A stretch of DNA of 53,717 nucleotides. Source: a bacterium (GTDB lineage: Bacteria > Bacteroidota > Rhodothermia > Balneolales > M1805). Position 1 is the stretch's first letter. Each line of letters begins with the position of its first letter. Under the pieces are notes generated by a model. It was not told where the DNA came from. It did no database searches and was given only the letters and a program-made list of their open reading frames with translations. The translations under genes were made by a program, and so were the position numbers. Below are positions 39,972 through 49,489 of this stretch, one piece after another. The stretch is from contig SBGQ01000019.1 in the NCBI GenBank assembly GCA_006226965.1, positions 1-53,717 of the forward strand, written 5' to 3'.

Positions 39972-42044
39972 TTAATATTCCAGTAATTTACGCAACGATT
40001 TTTGAATTTTCTCATCATTTGGCAGAATAAAATCTTCCATTGGGGCAGCAAATGCAATCGGCGAATACGTTGCCGCTAACCTTGCTACTGGAGCATCCAA
40101 ATAGGCAAATGCTTTATCTGCAATTTGAGCTGCAATTTCAGCACCAAATCCACAAAACTCAACATCTTCATACAGCACTAATACTCTGTTAGTCTTTGCT
40201 ACTGAATTAAGAATAGTTTCAGAATCTAAAGGCACTATTGTGCGCAAATCGATTACTTCAACTGAGAAACCTTCTGATTCTAATTGTTTTGCTGATTGTA
40301 ATGCACGCTGAACTAAGGCTCCGTAGGTTACGATCGTAACGTCTGAACCCTCTTTTACAACTTTAGCTTTACCAATTTCAACTAAATAGTCAGCATCCGG
40401 TTCTGGACGACGTGCAAATCCTTGTCTGTATAAAAATTTATGCTCTAAGAACATAACAGGATCATCGCTACGGATAGCTGTTTTTAAAAGTCCTTTTGCA
40501 TCAGCAGAGTTGGAAGGCATTACTATTTTATAACCTGGAATGTGAGCAAAGAAAGACTCAATATTTTGGCTATGACATAATCCGCCGTGAATATACCCAC
40601 CAATAGGAACTCGAATTACCATAGGACAGCCAAATTGATTGTGCGAACGATAACGTAAGTTCGGAATTTGGTTTCTTAACATTTGCATACCGGGCCAGAT
40701 GTAATCTCCGAATTGGATTTCAACGACAGGCTTTACACCTTTTACGGACATTCCCACTGCAGCACCTAAAATGGAAGCTTCTGCTAATGGTGAGTTAAAG
40801 CATCGTTTTGCACCAAATTTTTCTGTTAAACCACGAGTTGCAGTAAATACACCGCCTTTACCACCGCCAACATCTTCACCAAATACAACCACGTTTTCAT
40901 CACGTTCCATTTCTTCAGCGATGGCGTGATTAATAGCATCAACTAAAACAATCGGTTCACCAGATGGCTCAGAAGCTTCATAAGTTAATCCGAGTTCTTT
41001 CTCAGAATAGACAAACTTTAAAGCGTCTTCCGGTTGCGGCTCATCTTGTTCCAAAACCCAAGCAGTATCTTCATCAATTTGTTTTTTAACTTCTTCACGA
41101 ATTCTCAAAAAATCAGCTTCTGATAAAATTCTGGCAGCTAACAAACGCTGTTCGAAGTTTGAAATCGGATCATGCAGTAAATCACTTTCCAGGTCATCAG
41201 GATTACGATATTTTTTATGATCGTCTGATGAAGAGTGTGGCAATAAACGAACCGTGTGCGCATGAACTAAACTAGGCCCATCCCCTTTTCTCGCTCTTTC
41301 AACAGCTGCTTCAAATGCGGCAGAAGCGTGGAAAAAGTCCGTTCCGTCAACTTCAAAAATTTCTAAGTTTTCAAATCCGCGAACAGTTTTAGATATTGAA
41401 CCGTTTGAAGTTTGATCGGCTACAGGAACTGAAATTGCATATTTATTATCCTGAACTACAACAACTACCGGCGCTTTAATACGAGTTGCCCAGTTCAATA
41501 ATTCGAAAAATGAACCTTGAGATGTACCTCCATCACCCATAGAAATGTAAACTACTTCATCATGATTCATGTACTGAATACCCATCGCAACACCTAAACC
41601 CGGTAGGTTTTGTGCTCCAATAGCTGAGGAAACGGTTACTAATCGATGCTCTTTACTATTGAAATGCGACGGCATTTGTTTACCGTGAGAAGTATCAGTA
41701 ACACGACTCAAATGAGCAGAAAGCAATTGCTTGGATGTCATTCCCATCCCCAAGGCAAAAGCCATATCGCGATAATAGGTTAAACCCCAATCTTTGCCGG
41801 AAATCATATGTTTAGCTGCAGCCATTTGTACAGCTTCGTGACCAGAGCCGCCTATATGAAAGAAACCTTTTCCTTGCTTCAATAAGTTCAACATTTTCTC
41901 ATCTAATCGACGAGAAATAAGCATGGTTCGGTAAACATCAATGAGCTCTTCAGAAGAGAATTTTTTGATGGATTTTGCTCTGATTTTGAATATAGAATCA
42001 GTAGGGACGAGAGATTCTGTCCTGTTTAATGTAGATATACTCAT
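39972..42044 (-). CDS. fused 2-oxoacid (branched-chain) dehydrogenase E1 alpha-beta
   Basis: A 690-residue fusion. Residues ~1-340 are E1 alpha with the thiamine pyrophosphate motif 'GDGGTSQGSFFELLNWA' and 'HSSSDDHKKYR' in the phosphorylation-loop position. Residues ~365-690 are E1 beta with 'VVVFGEDVGGGKGGVF', 'VVEIQFGDYIWPGMQ' and 'RVPIGGYIHGGLCHSQ'. The enzyme decarboxylates a 2-oxoacid and acylates lipoyl-E2. The branched-chain substrate (2-oxoisovalerate type) is the usual annotation for this fused form and is inferred. E2 and E3 genes are absent from the window. Confidence 0.9.
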   Translation of the reverse strand: MSISTLNRTESLVPTDSIFKIRAKSIKKFSSEELIDVYRTMLISRRLDEKMLNLLKQGKGFFHIGGSGHEAVQMAAAKHMISGKDWGLTYYRDMAFALGMGMTSKQLLSAHLSRVTDTSHGKQMPSHFNSKEHRLVTVSSAIGAQNLPGLGVAMGIQYMNHDEVVYISMGDGGTSQGSFFELLNWATRIKAPVVVVVQDNKYAISVPVADQTSNGSISKTVRGFENLEIFEVDGTDFFHASAAFEAAVERARKGDGPSLVHAHTVRLLPHSSSDDHKKYRNPDDLESDLLHDPISNFEQRLLAARILSEADFLRIREEVKKQIDEDTAWVLEQDEPQPEDALKFVYSEKELGLTYEASEPSGEPIVLVDAINHAIAEEMERDENVVVFGEDVGGGKGGVFTATRGLTEKFGAKRCFNSPLAEASILGAAVGMSVKGVKPVVEIQFGDYIWPGMQMLRNQIPNLRYRSHNQFGCPMVIRVPIGGYIHGGLCHSQNIESFFAHIPGYKIVMPSNSADAKGLLKTAIRSDDPVMFLEHKFLYRQGFARRPEPDADYLVEIGKAKVVKEGSDVTIVTYGALVQRALQSAKQLESEGFSVEVIDLRTIVPLDSETILNSVAKTNRVLVLYEDVEFCGFGAEIAAQIADKAFAYLDAPVARLAATYSPIAFAAPMEDFILPNDEKIQKSLRKLLEY

Positions 42045-42103: not shown

Positions 42104-43240
42104 CTAGCTTAATTCCTTACCATAAATGCGGTAGGTCTTATCTATTACAGCACCTATTCTTTCAGCTACTCGAATCATACTGACATTGGTTTCTAAAACC
42201 CAGCTTAATTCGGCCGATTGATAACCTTTTTCTATTCCATTGACAATAGCCTGCTTGTGCATCAACGAATCTATACCTTTACCTTGAAATTCAGGAATAA
42301 CCCCCATTAAGGCAACACGCATCTGATTAATTGTGCGCTTGTAATATAACAATTTAAACAGTCCGAAGGGTAATAATCTGCCGTTAATCTTTTTCAGAAT
42401 TTGGTTAAAATTTGGTAAAGCAATCGAAAATGCAATTGGGACGCCATCAACCTCTGCTACAAAAGCAAAGTCGGTATCAATCACCATCTTTAAATCTTTA
42501 CCTAACTTTGTAAATATTTTATCTGCAATCGGATAAAAACTCCAATTGTTTGCCCAAGCTTTATTAAAAATGTCTTTTATTATTTCTACTTCCTGATCCA
42601 TCTTCTTCAAGTTCACCTTTCGGATAGACAGATTTGGGTAACGTTTCCTTACAATGGTCTCTCCACGTTCGATATGCTCAAAGTTCACCACATCTTTGGA
42701 AACGATATACGCATACATATCCATTTCTTTTGCATATCCTGCATTTTCAAGTAATTTCGGATAGTACGATTTTGTATAGGGCATCATTACAAACGGATCT
42801 TTATCAAATCCATCAACCAGAAAGCCAATGGTATCCATATTGCTCGGATTAAACGGCCCCATCATTTTAGTTCTGCCTTTTTCTTTTAGCCAATCGGCAG
42901 CAACTTTTAATAATAGATTCGCAACTGTTTGGTCATCAACACACTCAAAAAAACCAAAGAACCCAACGTTTTCATTTTTGAAAGAATTATAGGCGTGATT
43001 ATCAATCACTCCGATTCTTCCGGCTATTTCACCATTCTTTTCTGCTATAAAAAATGCGGCATCTGCATTTTCATAAAACGGATTGTGTTTTACATCAACC
43101 AATTTTTTTTCATCCATCAGTAATGGAGCAACCCAATGTTCGTCATTTTTATAATGCGAATAGGGGAAAAGAACAAAGTCCCGAAATTGGGACTTTGTGG
43201 TAACTAAATGAACTCCGTTAAGTTGTGGCACCTTAGCCAT
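42104..43240 (-). CDS. GNAT-like protein, candidate bacterial ceramide synthase
   Basis: A 378-residue protein from ATG 43240. 'FRDFVLFPYSHYKNDEHWV' and 'LVDVKHNPFYENADAAFFIA' are the N-terminal features of a family near serine palmitoyltransferase genes in Bacteroidota, with 'MMGPFNPSNMDTIGFLVDGF' in the middle and 'VALMGVIPEFQGKGIDSLM' as the acyl-CoA-binding motif of a GNAT fold near the end. The ATG overlaps the SPT stop by 8 bp (ATGGCTAA), so they are translationally coupled. Caulobacter bCerS, which N-acylates sphingoid bases, is a GNAT-type enzyme; the identity here is inferred from that and the neighbour. GTG at 43249 is an alternative start. Confidence 0.68.
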   Translation of the reverse strand: MAKVPQLNGVHLVTTKSQFRDFVLFPYSHYKNDEHWVAPLLMDEKKLVDVKHNPFYENADAAFFIAEKNGEIAGRIGVIDNHAYNSFKNENVGFFGFFECVDDQTVANLLLKVAADWLKEKGRTKMMGPFNPSNMDTIGFLVDGFDKDPFVMMPYTKSYYPKLLENAGYAKEMDMYAYIVSKDVVNFEHIERGETIVRKRYPNLSIRKVNLKKMDQEVEIIKDIFNKAWANNWSFYPIADKIFTKLGKDLKMVIDTDFAFVAEVDGVPIAFSIALPNFNQILKKINGRLLPFGLFKLLYYKRTINQMRVALMGVIPEFQGKGIDSLMHKQAIVNGIEKGYQSAELSWVLETNVSMIRVAERIGAVIDKTYRIYGKELS

Positions 43241-44483
43241 GTGATTCACCGATTAATGAATTTCCATTTCCATCGATAATTCCATTTTTTATACCGACAG
43301 TTCGGAACGCATCTAATATTTGGTCTAATTGGTCATTAGTATGTGTTGCCATGTAAGAAGTTCTAACTAATGATAAATCTTTTGGTACGGCCGGAGGAAC
43401 AACTGCGTTCACATATACACCGGCTTCGAATAAATCTTTCCAAAATCTGAAACATCTTTCCATTTCGCCAACAACTACAGGAATTATTGGAGATTGTGAA
43501 GCTAATACATTAAAACCTAATTTTTTGAACCCATTTCGCATGTAAACAGCAATTTCTTCTAATCGGTCTAAGCGCCATGTTTCTTGTTTCAAAATTTCTA
43601 AAGCTTTTAAAACAGTAGCTACGTTTGCCGGAGGCATAGATGCACTAAAAATGTGTGCCGGTGAAAAGTGACGTATGTATTCAATAATTTCGCGTCCACC
43701 TACTAAAAATCCACCCAAAGATGCGAATGATTTTGAAAATGTTCCTGACACTAAATCGACATCGTCTAATAAACCAAATGCTGAAGCGGAACCTCTACCG
43801 CCTTCACCTACAACACCAACCGCGTGGGCATCGTCTAAATACAATCTGGCACCGAATTCTTTAGCCAATTTCACCAAGCCTGGAACATCAGCTAAGCGGC
43901 CACTCATTGAGAATATACCATCAGAAACAATAATTTTACCTTTCGATGGATCTTCTCTTTCTAGAAGCATACGTAAATGCTCTAAATCATTATGTTGATA
44001 GCGAACGGTTTTTGCATTTGAAACTAATGTTCCAACTACAATACAAGCATGGTTTTCTTTATCTGAGAAAATAACGTCATTTCTTCCGGCTACCGTTTGA
44101 ATAGAACCCTCGTTTGTTTGGTAACCTGTTGAAAAAAGAACACAAGCTTCTTTATTCATAAAAGCCGCTAACTCAGCTTCTAATTGTAAGTGTAAATCTA
44201 GCGTTCCGTTTAAATATCTTGACCCCGTACAACCCGTTCCATATTGAGTAATTGCTTTTTGAGCTGCTTCCATAACTCTTGGGTCGTTTGTTAAACCTAA
44301 GTAGTTATTTGAACCCGCCATAATAACTTCATGTCCCTCAATCGTAACAACCGTTCCGTCAGTAGCAGTTAATGGTTTGAAATATGGGTATAAGCCTGCT
44401 GCTTTAACTTCATCTGCTCGCTTAAATTCAAATGCTTTAGCGAAAATATCAACATGGTTGATTCCGGTACTATTTGTAGGCAT
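43233..44483 (-). CDS. spt: serine palmitoyltransferase-type alpha-oxoamine synthase
   Basis: A 416-residue PLP enzyme of the alpha-oxoamine synthase family. 'GSNNYLGLTNDPRV', 'GTGCTGSRYLNGTLDLH', 'FSDKENHACIVVG' (stacking His), 'YLDDAHAVGVVGEGGRG' and the PLP-Lys motif 'SGTFSKSFASLGGFLVGG' are all intact. The latter reads like serine palmitoyltransferase, whereas Kbl and BioF have TLGKA-type sequences. The enzyme would join serine and an acyl-CoA to 3-ketosphinganine. ATG 44483 is chosen because AGAGGTGA stands 8 nt ahead; the longer GTG at 44531 lacks that. It is coupled to the candidate ceramide synthase. Confidence 0.82.
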   Translation of the reverse strand: MPTNSTGINHVDIFAKAFEFKRADEVKAAGLYPYFKPLTATDGTVVTIEGHEVIMAGSNNYLGLTNDPRVMEAAQKAITQYGTGCTGSRYLNGTLDLHLQLEAELAAFMNKEACVLFSTGYQTNEGSIQTVAGRNDVIFSDKENHACIVVGTLVSNAKTVRYQHNDLEHLRMLLEREDPSKGKIIVSDGIFSMSGRLADVPGLVKLAKEFGARLYLDDAHAVGVVGEGGRGSASAFGLLDDVDLVSGTFSKSFASLGGFLVGGREIIEYIRHFSPAHIFSASMPPANVATVLKALEILKQETWRLDRLEEIAVYMRNGFKKLGFNVLASQSPIIPVVVGEMERCFRFWKDLFEAGVYVNAVVPPAVPKDLSLVRTSYMATHTNDQLDQILDAFRTVGIKNGIIDGNGNSLIGESHG

Positions 44484-44549
44484 TCTTAATTCACCTCTAT
44501 GCTTTTGATAATAATGTGTTAATATAGCCACTAATCCAATTCAATCAAA

Positions 44550-45695
44550 TTAGGCATTTAGGGCTAGTTGAGTTTCTTTTTTGTCTTGAACTTTTTGTTG
44601 GAGATAACTGATATAGTGCTTAGCTACCTGATCCCAACTAAAGGTTTCCGTAACATATTTTTTTGTTGAACTTCGTAACTCAATTAAGTTATCATTCAAT
44701 ACAGAATCTATTTTTAGTGCAAAAGAATCGGCGTCCAACGCTTTAATCTTGTACCCGCTAATTCCATCGATAATTACATCACGAATTCCTTCTAAATCAG
44801 CAGCAATGCTTGGTGTTCCGGCCAATCCTGCCTCAAGCATTACAATTCCAAATCCTTCCATATCTCCCGGAACAGGGATATTTGGCATTAAAAATAAGTC
44901 GGCACCCGAGTAAGCATTATATAAAACATTATCAGGTTGGCGTCCGGCTAATATAGCTTTCTTCTGTTGACCGGCACTTTTTAACGTTTGGTCCAATGTC
45001 GCTAATTCATTCCCATCACCAATAACTAACCAAGTTACTTTTGATTTTATTGATGGAAGTACGTTTTTAGCAAACCAAGCATGCCCTTTTCTTTTGACCA
45101 TTCTACCAACAGTTAATAAAATGAAATGGTCTTCTGGAATGGAGAATGTCTTTTTTAAAAAGTTCTGCGCTTGTTTTCGTTCAATCATGTGTCCAAGCCA
45201 CTCATCCGGAAAACCATTTGGCAGTGCTACCCCTTTTTCAGGAGCTAATCCTCTTTTAATACTTTCTTCTCTTGTGGCATTAGAAACAGATATTACTCCA
45301 TCTAAAGCCTTAAACACTTGAGGCACATAAGATTGATAAACACGAACCGGCATGGTAACATCCTGTCCGTGATTAATTGTAATCAAAGGAATTGAAACTT
45401 TCTTACGGATGAGAGGCGCCAATGAAGCTGTAACCATCGATGAAAACAAAATCACATCTGCATTAAACTCTTTTGCGATAGCAGGTAATTTTCTAGCAAG
45501 TTTCATCAAAAAGCCAGCCGTCTTAAATCCTACATGCTTCCATTTTGCGTGTAAGGTGATTGGCAACAATTCAACGCCATCGAGTCGTTCTAAATGCTCC
45601 ACCAATTGCATACTAACACGTTGCATTCCACCCATGTTTTCTAACTGCATGTCATGCGGAGGGTGCAAATGAGATATGTAAACTATTCGGAGCAA
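44550..45695 (-). CDS. GT4-family glycosyltransferase 2 of the sphingolipid locus
   Basis: A 381-residue GT-B glycosyltransferase. The N-terminal strand 'LRIVYISHLHPP' begins at a TTG codon (45695) only 7 nt after the upstream gene, and no nearby ATG would keep it. 'MGGMQRVSMQLVEHL' is the usual acceptor loop. The donor side has 'LLTVGRMVKRKGHAWFAKN', 'WLVIGDGNELATL' and 'EGFGIVMLEAGLAGTPSIAA', including the EX7E-type Glu pair. It should use a nucleotide-sugar. Its position between the first glycosyltransferase and spt suggests glycosylation of a sphingolipid; that is inference. Sugar and acceptor are unknown. Confidence 0.85.
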   Translation of the reverse strand: MLRIVYISHLHPPHDMQLENMGGMQRVSMQLVEHLERLDGVELLPITLHAKWKHVGFKTAGFLMKLARKLPAIAKEFNADVILFSSMVTASLAPLIRKKVSIPLITINHGQDVTMPVRVYQSYVPQVFKALDGVISVSNATREESIKRGLAPEKGVALPNGFPDEWLGHMIERKQAQNFLKKTFSIPEDHFILLTVGRMVKRKGHAWFAKNVLPSIKSKVTWLVIGDGNELATLDQTLKSAGQQKKAILAGRQPDNVLYNAYSGADLFLMPNIPVPGDMEGFGIVMLEAGLAGTPSIAADLEGIRDVIIDGISGYKIKALDADSFALKIDSVLNDNLIELRSSTKKYVTETFSWDQVAKHYISYLQQKVQDKKETQLALNA

Positions 45696-45702
45696 GGTGA
45701 AC

Positions 45703-46857
45703 TTAGAATTTTAATTCAGGAATCGGCTGAGCTAATGCTTCGTAATAGTTACTTAGAAGTCCGTCGTTCACTTTATCCCAAGAATAAGGCAATGCTTTCT
45801 GGCGGGCGACTTCACTCATTTTTTTACGAGTCTCTTCACTTTCTACAAGCTGACCAATAGCCTCAGCAAATAAAACCGTTTTCTTTGGCGGACAAATCAA
45901 ACCATTCACACCATGTTCAACTAAAGATTTAGAACCTGTGGCATCGGCAACAACAGCAGGAACACCGCTAGACATTGCCTCGAGTGTAACATTTCCAAAG
46001 GTTTCGGTGTCTGATGGGAAGAAGAAAATATCACTACTAGCATAAGCTGTTGCTAATTCTTCCCCAGATAAAAAGCCGGTAAATACGGCTTGAGGCATCA
46101 TGTGCATCAACTCGTTTTTAGCGGGGCCATCACCCACAATCATTACTTTTAGATTCGGGTATTTCGGGTATAATTTTTTGAGTGTATCAACAACGGTTTG
46201 AAGATCTTTTTCCCAAACTAAACGAGATACAAATGTCACAACAACTTGATCATCTTCAATGCCCAGCTTTCTGCGCCACTCCATCGAGCGTTTTTCAGGA
46301 CTAAATAAATCGATATACACACCACGAGCCCAAATTCTCAGCCCTTCATCTATCTGATGTTCTCTCAGTTCATCAGCCATAGATGCACTTGGCACATACA
46401 CATGCTTACATTGGCTATAAAACCAACTCAAATACTTCCATCCTAAAATCTCGAGCATTTCCATATTGTAATACTTCAGATAGCTCGTGAAATGCGTGTG
46501 ATAAGACGATACCACTTGAATGTTATTCATCTGTGCAAATCGCATCGAACGGAAACCCAATAAATCGGGGGTTGCGATGTGAATTAAAGTCGGGTCGAAT
46601 TCTCTTAGTCTTTTCTGAGCTTCTTGCGGAAAACCTATGGTAACTCTGTACTCAGGACGCCCCGGCATTGGGATGGAAGGCACCGAAACAAATTCACCAT
46701 TATGCTCAATGGCTGGTTCATCGCAAGTTGGCCCGTAAACAATTACCGGAATATTTCTTTTCTCTAAATGCGCTACTAGTCGATTTAACGTGAGGGAAAC
46801 ACCATCTCTGATGTGATTATAATTTCCCGTGAAAATAGCTACGCGTAAATCTTTCAT
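45703..46857 (-). CDS. GT4-family glycosyltransferase 1 of the sphingolipid locus
   Basis: A 384-residue GT-B enzyme of GT4. 'RVAIFTGNYNHIRDGVSLTL' is the N-terminal glycine-containing loop. 'VVSSYHTHFTSYLKYY' and the donor motifs 'FVSRLVWEKDLQTVVDTL', 'VMIVGDGPAKNELM' and 'FPSDTETFGNVTLEAMSSG' are typical of the MgtA/SQDX/glycolipid branch, with the two Glu of the EX7E motif. Its neighbours are a second GT4 enzyme (7 nt), spt and the candidate ceramide synthase. A role in glycosphingolipid synthesis is inferred; other glycolipids are possible. ATG at 46857 is clear. Confidence 0.88.
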   Translation of the reverse strand: MKDLRVAIFTGNYNHIRDGVSLTLNRLVAHLEKRNIPVIVYGPTCDEPAIEHNGEFVSVPSIPMPGRPEYRVTIGFPQEAQKRLREFDPTLIHIATPDLLGFRSMRFAQMNNIQVVSSYHTHFTSYLKYYNMEMLEILGWKYLSWFYSQCKHVYVPSASMADELREHQIDEGLRIWARGVYIDLFSPEKRSMEWRRKLGIEDDQVVVTFVSRLVWEKDLQTVVDTLKKLYPKYPNLKVMIVGDGPAKNELMHMMPQAVFTGFLSGEELATAYASSDIFFFPSDTETFGNVTLEAMSSGVPAVVADATGSKSLVEHGVNGLICPPKKTVLFAEAIGQLVESEETRKKMSEVARQKALPYSWDKVNDGLLSNYYEALAQPIPELKF

Positions 46858-46912
46858 ATAAATTAAAAATCGTTTAGCCTATTTTAATCCGTCTAATGGG
46901 CTTATGTTTTAG

Positions 46913-46920
46913 TATTTTTG
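46913..46920 (+). promoter_or_regulatory. candidate -7 element for the divergent SDR gene
   Basis: TATTTTTG matches the TAnnTTTG element and lies 62 nt before the ATG at 46982, in the 124-bp gap to the divergent glycosyltransferase operon. No equally good element was found on the minus strand in this gap. Confidence 0.42.
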
Positions 46921-46981
46921 CGTTGATTGCAGTTAAACTGTGAACTACGTTCATTTTTAGCCTCGAAATATACAGATTTTT

Positions 46982-47953
46982 ATGAAAGCTTTTGTGACCG
47001 GTGGTACCGGATTTATTGGAAGTCACTTGGTTGATCGCCTGTTACAACAAGGAGATACAGAAGTTTCATGTTTAGTTCGCGGAAATGAAAAATGGCTAAA
47101 GGGCAGAAAATACAATCAGATAAAAGGCGATTTACAAGATTTAGATGTTTTAAAACACGCACTTAAAGGTGTTGATATCATTTTCCACAATGCCGCTTTA
47201 GTAAAAGCCCCAAATTGGCAACAATTCGAAGTTGCCAATGTTGATGCTGCTGAAAATCTCGTACGAATTGCACAAAAAGTTGGTGTCAGTAAAGTAGTTA
47301 TTCTTTCCTCACAAGCTGCTGCGGGACCAAGTTCAGGTATTCCTGTTTCAGAAGATTCACCAATGAAGCCCGTAAGCATGTATGGTGAGTCCAAAAAACT
47401 GATGGAAGAACGAATTGAGAAAATCTGCAAAGACGGATATCCCGTTACGATTGTTCGTCCGCCGGCTGTTTACGGTCCACGAGAGGAAAACATTTTTTCA
47501 TTCTTCAAATCAGCTTCAAAAGGTTTGTGCCCGATTGTTGGCAATGGAAAAAGCCCAAAAATTTCGCTTACTCATGTTCATGATTTAGTGAGCGGTATTA
47601 TTTTAGCAGCCAATTATCCGCATGAAGGAATTGAAAAGTTTTATATCTCGAGCGAAGAAACCTACAACTGGAATCAGATTAAAGATGCAACATCCTTTGC
47701 TCTCGGTAGAAAGTTGTTACCTTTAAAAATAAATGCGAACCTTGTAAAAAAAGCCGGTGTTTTATCCGAAACCGTAAGTTCATTATTCGGTAGTTACCCG
47801 ATTTTCAACAAAGAAAAAGCCATTGAAATGACTTTAGAATGGACCTGCTCCGTTGATAAAGCCAAAAAACTACTAGGGTATCGCCAAACAGTTTCTTTAG
47901 AACACGGAATCTTGGATACGATTCGTTGGTATCAAAAACATCACTGGATTTAA
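46982..47953 (+). CDS. extended SDR, candidate ceramide/3-ketosphinganine reductase (CerR-like)
   Basis: A 323-residue NAD(P)-dependent epimerase/reductase of the extended SDR class. The nucleotide motif is 'VTGGTGFIGSHLVDRL' (TGGTGFIG at 6-13). The active site is Ser110 in 'VVILSSQAAAG' with Tyr134 and Lys138 in 'SMYGESKKLM'. 'IVRPPAVYGPREENIF' follows. Caulobacter CerR, which reduces the keto group in bacterial ceramide synthesis, belongs to this class. Divergence from the spt operon makes CerR a good candidate. A sugar epimerase linked to the glycosyltransferases is the main alternative. Confidence 0.62.
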   Translation: MKAFVTGGTGFIGSHLVDRLLQQGDTEVSCLVRGNEKWLKGRKYNQIKGDLQDLDVLKHALKGVDIIFHNAALVKAPNWQQFEVANVDAAENLVRIAQKVGVSKVVILSSQAAAGPSSGIPVSEDSPMKPVSMYGESKKLMEERIEKICKDGYPVTIVRPPAVYGPREENIFSFFKSASKGLCPIVGNGKSPKISLTHVHDLVSGIILAANYPHEGIEKFYISSEETYNWNQIKDATSFALGRKLLPLKINANLVKKAGVLSETVSSLFGSYPIFNKEKAIEMTLEWTCSVDKAKKLLGYRQTVSLEHGILDTIRWYQKHHWI

Positions 47954-47962
47954 TTGATTAAC

Positions 47963-49489
47963 ATGTCAGTTTTACGATTCACACTTCTACTTTTAATTAT
48001 CCCGATTCTTGGTTTTGCTCAATCTCCCTTGGTTGAAAAAGACTTGAGTTACCACATGAGAATTCCCGGAATCACACAAATTAATACAACCGAAATCCAT
48101 GCTTACGTTCTCAGTGAAAAAGAAGGCTTAGCCGTTTTCAGAACGCACAAAGATTCCTTGCAGTGGTTATTTACGATTGAAGATGTAGAAGAACGCGGAT
48201 TTCATTTACAATCTGATATTCGTTTTGCCTATTTATATGGTGGTTCTACTCAATTACACATTATTGAACCAACTTCTTTATTGGGAATTTACTCTGTTGC
48301 TGATTTAGGCTTTGAAGCGCACGATGTTGCGCGGATTGATGCTCAATTGTATATATGCGGTAAAAACGGTGAGTTTGGCTTTCTTGATTTGAGTCATCCT
48401 GATTCAGTTGTGAGTTCTTTTAAAGCGTGGGATAATCAACTTGGAATCAAAAAAGTAAAACAAATTGAGTCCTATTTTGAAACGCTGTTTATTTTGGGTA
48501 ATGATGATAGTCTTTCCATTATTGATAAATCCAAGACAGGTTTTGAACTAAAGAAAAAATTGAAAATCCCATATCCGATTGAATCCGTGTTTCTCAAAAA
48601 CAAGACGATTTACGGAACTACTTATGAGGGCGAACTTATTCAGATTGATGCTCTTAGCGGAGAAACTAAACTTCTTGGCAAAGCCGACGGTTATATCACC
48701 AAACTTGATTTCTGGAATGGTTTTTTAATCACCCGAACCGAAAACGGACTCGTTCATTTATTTGATAGCGGAAACTTCTTCAACTTTAATGAAAATCCTG
48801 AATCAGGAAATCATTTCGGTGTTTCTAAAGGCAATTTGTGGTTTACTGAATATGCCGATGTGTTTCGTTTAAAATGGATACAAGACTCTGAACGCGAACA
48901 AGTTGCAAAATCGGTTGAGCAATCTGAATGGAAACTGAAACCCGTTCGTGATTACATTTTACCTTATCCGAAACCACTATTAGTTCATGTTGAAACCGAG
49001 CCTAGAAGTGTAGAGTCCAACGTTGTTTACACGATTTTTTCACCTTTTGAAAATGTAACTCAAGTTGAAAACAACTTTACTTGGCAACCCGGTGCCAGAG
49101 ATATTGGGGTGCACATTTTCAAAGTTGTTGCAACTGACCAATTCGGTAAAAATGACTCTCTTTCCTTTACGGTTGATATTCGTCCATTCAATTTACCACC
49201 AAAATTCGCTCCGGTTAGACCCATGAGCCTCCCCGTTTCGGAACCCTTTTCTATCACATTTTCCGCTTTAGACCCCGACGGAATGGAAAAAAATTTGGTT
49301 CGATATGTCGGTGTTGATATGCCTTCCGGTGCTCATTTAGAAGAAAAAACAGGCGTTCTTACCTGGACTCCAAACTTAGAACAAGTTGGTAAACACGATT
49401 TCAGAGTTATTGCTACAGACCAATACGGTACTGCCGCATCAATGGATGTTTCCTTAACCGTTATTGATGTTAAACGCTCAGGCAATTAA
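47963..49489 (+). CDS. exported protein with Ig-like C-terminal domain
   Basis: A 508-residue protein from ATG 47963 (the TTG at 47954 is not needed). Signal peptide MSVLRFTLLLLIIPILGFA, cleaved near AQS. Residues ~25-300 contain repeated strand-rich units (for example 'LYICGKNGEFGFLDLSHPD', 'LFILGNDDSLSIIDKS') that look like a beta propeller. The C-terminus has two cadherin/Ig-like modules: 'FTWQPGARDIGVHIFKVVAT' and 'GVLTWTPNLEQVGKHDFRV', of the putative-Ig type. I do not recognise a function. It begins 9 nt after the SDR gene and precedes mutY by 3 nt. Confidence 0.75.
   Translation: MSVLRFTLLLLIIPILGFAQSPLVEKDLSYHMRIPGITQINTTEIHAYVLSEKEGLAVFRTHKDSLQWLFTIEDVEERGFHLQSDIRFAYLYGGSTQLHIIEPTSLLGIYSVADLGFEAHDVARIDAQLYICGKNGEFGFLDLSHPDSVVSSFKAWDNQLGIKKVKQIESYFETLFILGNDDSLSIIDKSKTGFELKKKLKIPYPIESVFLKNKTIYGTTYEGELIQIDALSGETKLLGKADGYITKLDFWNGFLITRTENGLVHLFDSGNFFNFNENPESGNHFGVSKGNLWFTEYADVFRLKWIQDSEREQVAKSVEQSEWKLKPVRDYILPYPKPLLVHVETEPRSVESNVVYTIFSPFENVTQVENNFTWQPGARDIGVHIFKVVATDQFGKNDSLSFTVDIRPFNLPPKFAPVRPMSLPVSEPFSITFSALDPDGMEKNLVRYVGVDMPSGAHLEEKTGVLTWTPNLEQVGKHDFRVIATDQYGTAASMDVSLTVIDVKRSGN

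Follow-up and report, generated by a model that had tools for sequence, protein, structure and literature searches.

Organization of the locus

We analysed a stretch of 53,717 nucleotides (hereafter the window; contig SBGQ01000019.1 of assembly GCA_006226965.1) from a bacterium of the order Balneolales, class Rhodothermia, and focused on five genes between positions 42104 and 47953 that a first-pass annotation had proposed to form a complete bacterial sphingolipid locus. Based on Pfam and NCBIfam the five proteins belong to the classes GNAT, aminotransferase I/II, GT4 glycosyltransferase (two proteins) and extended short-chain dehydrogenase/reductase (SDR). The features are listed below with the basis of each assignment.

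42104..43240 (open reading frame (ORF) 42104-43249, ATG at 43240), minus strand: cerS (bCerS), predicted tandem-GNAT N-acyltransferase; homology, linkage and predicted fold
43233..44531, minus strand: spt, predicted serine palmitoyltransferase (SPT; alpha-oxoamine synthase); profile, PDB, residues and tree
44550..45695, minus strand: GT_B, second GT4 glycosyltransferase, variable member of the cluster; Pfam GT4 domains
45703..46857, minus strand: GT_A, GT4 glycosyltransferase, invariant member of the cluster; Pfam GT4 domains
46858..46981, no strand: intergenic region between the divergent genes GT_A and cerR, probably with promoters for both directions; position only
46982..47953, plus strand: cerR candidate, extended SDR with Rossmann TGxxGFxG and YxxxK motifs; reciprocal hits and tree

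The four minus-strand genes are tightly spaced, with distances of -8 to about +18 bp, and the ATG of cerS and the stop codon of spt share exactly 8 bp (ATGGCTAA). About 125 bp separate GT_A from the divergent SDR gene, which heads a plus-strand run of SDR, Ig-domain protein, mutY and TIGR02757. A promoter scan of the GT_A/cerR intergenic region gave no match to a consensus promoter that exceeded what shuffled sequence gave. The first-pass annotation had described the five ORFs, the divergent SDR and the 8-bp overlap; our ORF check found all five ORFs intact and at the same coordinates, and the overlap to be exact.

Identification of the ceramide-synthesis enzymes

A PDB search with the spt product returned the SPT of Sphingobacterium as the closest solved structures (8guh/3a2b, E 1e-118), followed at a distance by Kbl-type enzymes (about 1e-79) and the SPT of Sphingomonas (about 1e-74), and still more weakly by the sulfonolipid synthase SulA (7u7h, 3e-65) and cysteate acyltransferase (CFAT; 28eh, 8e-62). 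The residues that bind pyridoxal 5'-phosphate (PLP) or act in catalysis (N, H, D, H, K and R) are complete at the aligned positions. Lys281 of SulA has been proposed to distinguish this enzyme from Spt, which has Ala (PMC9304779), and at this position the window protein has Ala, as do all the Spt homologues of the order and class that were aligned with it; the Ala sits in the motif FSASMPP, with the PLP lysine at +30. In a maximum-likelihood tree with few outgroup rows, the protein fell in an Spt clade (99/98) together with homologues from Caulobacter, Bacteroides/Prevotella, Rubrobacter, Aureispira and an E. coli plasmid, and outside this clade were E. coli Kbl, E. coli BioF and the separate BioF of the genome itself. 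Judged from its sequence, the PLP enzyme is a serine palmitoyltransferase.

The GNAT protein carries a Pfam Acetyltransf_1 domain in its C-terminal half and has a homologue in YghO, which is encoded in a plasmid locus of E. coli. Over residues 13-380 it is 36-38% identical (E 1e-70 to 1e-73) to the Caulobacter protein encoded at the position of CC_1154 near spt-cerR; CC_1154 itself is an N-acyltransferase required for ceramide (PMC11324152). An alignment of 40 family members from several phyla contains 26 invariant positions. The predicted structure (predicted local distance difference test score, pLDDT, 88.9) shows a tandem GNAT fold with tandem GNATs as the top PDB matches, and a PDB sequence search with CerS gave only weak GNAT matches. 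Each of the 70 genomes sampled from the class has a CerS homologue, and the window genome has exactly one. These results support the prediction that the gene encodes a bacterial ceramide synthase of the CC_1154/YghO family (bCerS), which would N-acylate 3-ketosphinganine or sphinganine. Several relatives additionally carry diverged YghO-type copies of CerS, for example at G051:C5:49577-50680 and, as paralogues of 26-33% identity, in family f3.

For the divergent SDR, the best match in each of four Caulobacter genomes was the SDR beside spt, i.e. CerR by position, and in the reverse search the CerR of C. segnis matched only this SDR in the window genome (E 3.5e-36). The motifs read TGGTGFIG and YGESK, and the key residues are invariant across the aligned rows. 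In the SDR tree the protein clustered with SDRs from further spt loci (97/97) and separately from seven of the eight additional Caulobacter SDRs; the details of this tree are unsure, as the eighth, long-branched Caulobacter SDR lands inside the CerR side. The Rossmann motif begins as early as residue 6 and leaves no space ahead of it for a classical signal peptide, and the Caulobacter sequences are alike in this; a periplasmic location has been reported for Caulobacter CerR (PMC11087976). The sequence comparisons support the SDR as the CerR counterpart, a candidate ceramide reductase.

The first-pass annotation had named an SPT-type PLP enzyme, a candidate ceramide synthase and a candidate CerR, and had proposed a structure prediction of the GNAT protein and a comparison of gene order in relatives as checks. 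Each of these assignments held: the PLP enzyme groups with Spt and apart from Kbl and BioF, the GNAT protein belongs with the Caulobacter CerS-locus/YghO family rather than with unrelated acetyltransferases and has a predicted tandem GNAT fold, and the SDR is the reciprocal best match of C. segnis CerR.

Conservation of the gene order

The comparison of gene order likewise agreed with the proposal. The arrangement SDR <> GT_A-(GT_B)-spt-cerS was present in 32 of the 33 loci fetched from the order, and the 33rd was cut by a contig end. Identity across these loci was roughly 43-81% for the five proteins, and the gene order is conserved far beyond chance. Outside the order but within the class, spt and cerS were adjacent in 16 of 19 fetched loci, and no SDR or glycosyltransferase homologues were found near spt-cerS in these 19 loci. 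An SDR orthologue was located elsewhere in each of 12 genomes from outside the order (39-51% identity, with one weaker at 32%). The cluster thus looks like three older modules that were brought together, namely spt-cerS, the SDR and the glycosyltransferase pair, and because these modules lie apart outside the order, their union within it is a distinct arrangement that has been kept across families.

The glycosyltransferases

Every one of the 32 complete loci of the order has GT_A, and 25 of them have GT_B; GT_B was absent from one family (L147, L155, L156 and L168) and swapped for another GT4 enzyme in one genus (L142, L146 and L151). Such loss and replacement points to glycan head groups that vary while the lipid core stays the same. 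Outside the order GT_B adjoins GT_A in seven of eight loci, and in five of these eight a protein family of about 850 residues is encoded close by, of which the one member tested was an MMPL/RND transporter nearest to HpnN. An orthologue of this transporter (47%) is encoded elsewhere in the window genome. At L257 (8082-12412) and its relatives L256, L258, L261 and L262, all from outside the order, GT_A/GT_B lie by the HpnN-like MMPL/RND transporter and a DUF3047 protein, and in some by a third conserved protein. We regard this neighbourhood as a candidate glycolipid export module.

It is from linkage only that we infer that the glycosyltransferases act on ceramide, and we consider it somewhat more probable than the opposite that at least one of them uses a sphingolipid acceptor. 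The first-pass annotation had proposed a (glyco)sphingolipid locus; the sphingolipid backbone part of this claim stands, and the glycosyl part is argued from linkage. A more far-reaching and rather unlikely scenario is that GT_A founds a ceramide glycosyltransferase family kept across the class, with exchangeable partners (GT_B or its replacement), and that the glycosylceramide is passed to the HpnN-like MMPL/RND exporter to give a glycosphingolipid-covered surface.

Alternative explanations

Several observations weigh against a locus for glycosylated ceramide. The main live rival is a glycerolipid acceptor: spt, cerS and cerR would make ceramide, and GT_A and GT_B would be co-located with them and act on glycerolipids of the hexosyl-diacylglycerol (DAG) or glucosamine-phosphatidylglycerol (GlcN-PG) type. 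The best models for GT_A, all below their cut-offs, were GlcN-PG and monoglucosyl-DAG synthases (NCBIfam), and neither protein matched a ceramide glycosyltransferase model, no profile for such enzymes having been to hand. GT_B can moreover be lost or exchanged, as it is in 7 of the 32 complete loci of the order. Twelve other genomes of the class each have one strong GT_A orthologue (49-56%) away from spt-cerS, and because the glycosyltransferases are unlinked to spt outside the order, the glycerolipid acceptor keeps some likelihood. However, GT_A is linked to spt in every complete locus of the order, two Caulobacter genomes have a GT_A homologue (39-40%) shortly beyond cerS, and the named plasmid sequences that match GT_A best come from Sphingomonadales, which are known sphingolipid makers; the GT_A homologues of sphingomonads were not found beside sphingolipid genes. 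Taken together, we judge the glycerolipid acceptor to be possible, with a probability well short of even.

Other observations concern the three ceramide enzymes. The best NCBIfam model for Spt was SerpalmtaseCFB (Bacteroidetes serine palmitoyltransferase), with a score of 489 bits that is below the equivalog cut-off of 640 bits; this cut-off is a naming convenience threshold and not a biochemical criterion, and the model was, by our own inference, probably built on narrower Bacteroidetes members. A sulfonolipid (capnine) locus, in which the PLP enzyme would be a cysteate acyltransferase (SulA/CFAT) and CerS and CerR would build sulfonolipids, deserves mention because members of the Bacteroidetes are known to have sulfonolipids and because SulA and Spt are closely related enzymes (PMC9304779). 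The similarity to SPT is however far above that to SulA and CFAT, and the Lys281/Ala test, with Ala in all aligned Spt homologues of the order and class, led us to reject this reading, which we hold to be very improbable.

The SDR is only 27-33% identical to Caulobacter CerR, and its best NCBIfam label, well below the cut-off, is HpnA, a hopanoid epimerase. Together with the broad families that Pfam gives, this label would suit an ordinary Kbl/BioF-type enzyme whose neighbours are an acetyltransferase with no relation to it and an epimerase that acts on sugars in polysaccharide or hopanoid synthesis. This explanation is contradicted by the tree and residues of Spt and by the separate BioF in the genome; known or probable CerR proteins, including that of Caulobacter itself, also receive the weak HpnA label, which is unlikely to apply here because no squalene-hopene cyclase was found in the window genome. 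As the linkage of the three genes also recurs in distant bacteria, the explanation is largely refuted and we give it hardly any credence.

Proposed pathway and significance

We consider it likely that the locus is the chromosomal ceramide-synthesis locus of its host joined by two probable ceramide glycosyltransferases, and highly probable that it makes the ceramide backbone, for which "complete" was the right word in the first-pass annotation. The sequence analysis shows the identity of the enzymes (by homology, residues and linkage), their catalytic residues, orthology and gene order, and the chemistry is proposed by analogy with Caulobacter and Sphingobacterium. Spt would join L-serine and a long-chain acyl thioester in a condensation that yields 3-ketosphinganine, the tandem-GNAT protein CerS would N-acylate this product, and the extended SDR CerR would reduce the 3-keto group to give dihydroceramide. 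The order of these steps is likewise taken by analogy; whether acylation or reduction comes first is debated in Caulobacter, where recent localisation data favour acylation first (PMC11087976). GT_A, together with GT_B where that gene is present, would most likely go on to attach one or two sugars to the ceramide, and the glycosylated ceramide may be exported to the outer membrane; the glycosylation step as a whole is a proposal.

The ceramide pathway is already known from Caulobacter and Bacteroides. To judge from the open-access papers searched, the order-wide union of ceramide genes with a pair of GT4 genes seems to be undescribed; in these papers nothing relevant on sphingolipids in Balneola, Rhodothermia or Rhodothermus was found by title or abstract. 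The three ceramide genes have been reported as not close together in sphingolipid-producing Bacteroidota (PMC11334938); what is new here is that, despite this scattering, their linkage is kept across an order, along with the GT4 partners. With our results, the known range of the complete linked set of ceramide genes grows to include an entire order, and that of the spt-cerS pair to include most of the loci sampled from the class. They also point to particular candidates for glycosphingolipid synthesis, namely two GT4 enzymes and a possible lipid exporter, that are open to testing in relatives available in culture. To our knowledge, few bacterial ceramide glycosyltransferases have been identified so far.

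Neighbouring genes

Two further genes flank the locus:

39972..42044, minus strand: fused 2-oxoacid dehydrogenase E1 alpha-beta; Pfam E1_dh, Transket_pyr and Transketolase_C
47954..49489, plus strand: secreted-looking Ig-domain (He_PIG) protein, directly downstream of cerR; Pfam

A gap of 60 bp separates cerS from the E1 gene downstream, which adjoins cerS in families f1, f2, f4 and f5 of the order. Speculatively, its product could be a source of branched acyl primers; its profile matches (NCBIfam) did not tell pyruvate and branched-chain specificity apart. The gene for the Ig-domain protein (31-38% identity) directly follows cerR and precedes mutY in those loci of the order that reach so far, and it was not detected beside the SDR in loci outside the order. 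The protein is possibly a cell-envelope partner of the ceramide pathway.

Comparison with known systems

The SPT of Sphingobacterium multivorum (3a2b, 8guh) is the best solved relative and has the same catalytic residues as the window Spt; the window protein differs by an N-terminal extension, and its substrate preference is a prediction. The linked genes recur in independent loci on plasmids of other bacteria. A plasmid of the actinobacterium Rubrobacter radiotolerans carries spt-cerS-SDR in tandem (L135 10707-14074), a probable case of ceramide synthesis acquired by horizontal transfer; an LTA-synthase-family gene follows these three genes. On an E. coli plasmid spt-acp-SDR-acyl ligase is found with yghO. 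Closest in layout is a plasmid of Aureispira anguillae, which has the same three genes in the divergent arrangement of the window (SDR <> spt-cerS), but at 37-47% identity, plasmid-borne and with no glycosyltransferases between the SDR and spt.

In Caulobacter crescentus the homologous Spt, CerS and CerR are encoded in one region (aasR-cerR-acpR-spt ... cerS, CC_1165-CC_1154), whereas the locus in the window is tightly packed, with an overlap between spt and cerS, and is without the dedicated acyl carrier protein AcpR, the acyl-ACP synthetase AasR and the lptF/lptG copies. The lack of AcpR and AasR in the cluster fits the acyl-CoA use reported for Bacteroidetes Spt (PMC11324152). The ceramide glycosyltransferases of Caulobacter, Sgt1 and Sgt2 (CCNA_00793/00792, PMC6445935), have locus tags far from that of spt (CCNA_01220). 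A ceramide acceptor has been shown for these two enzymes and for BF9343_3149 of Bacteroides fragilis, an alpha-galactosylceramide synthase (PMC9692976, PMC6445935); GT_A and GT_B share the GT4 superfamily with all three, a likeness at the level of the superfamily and not a claim of orthology.

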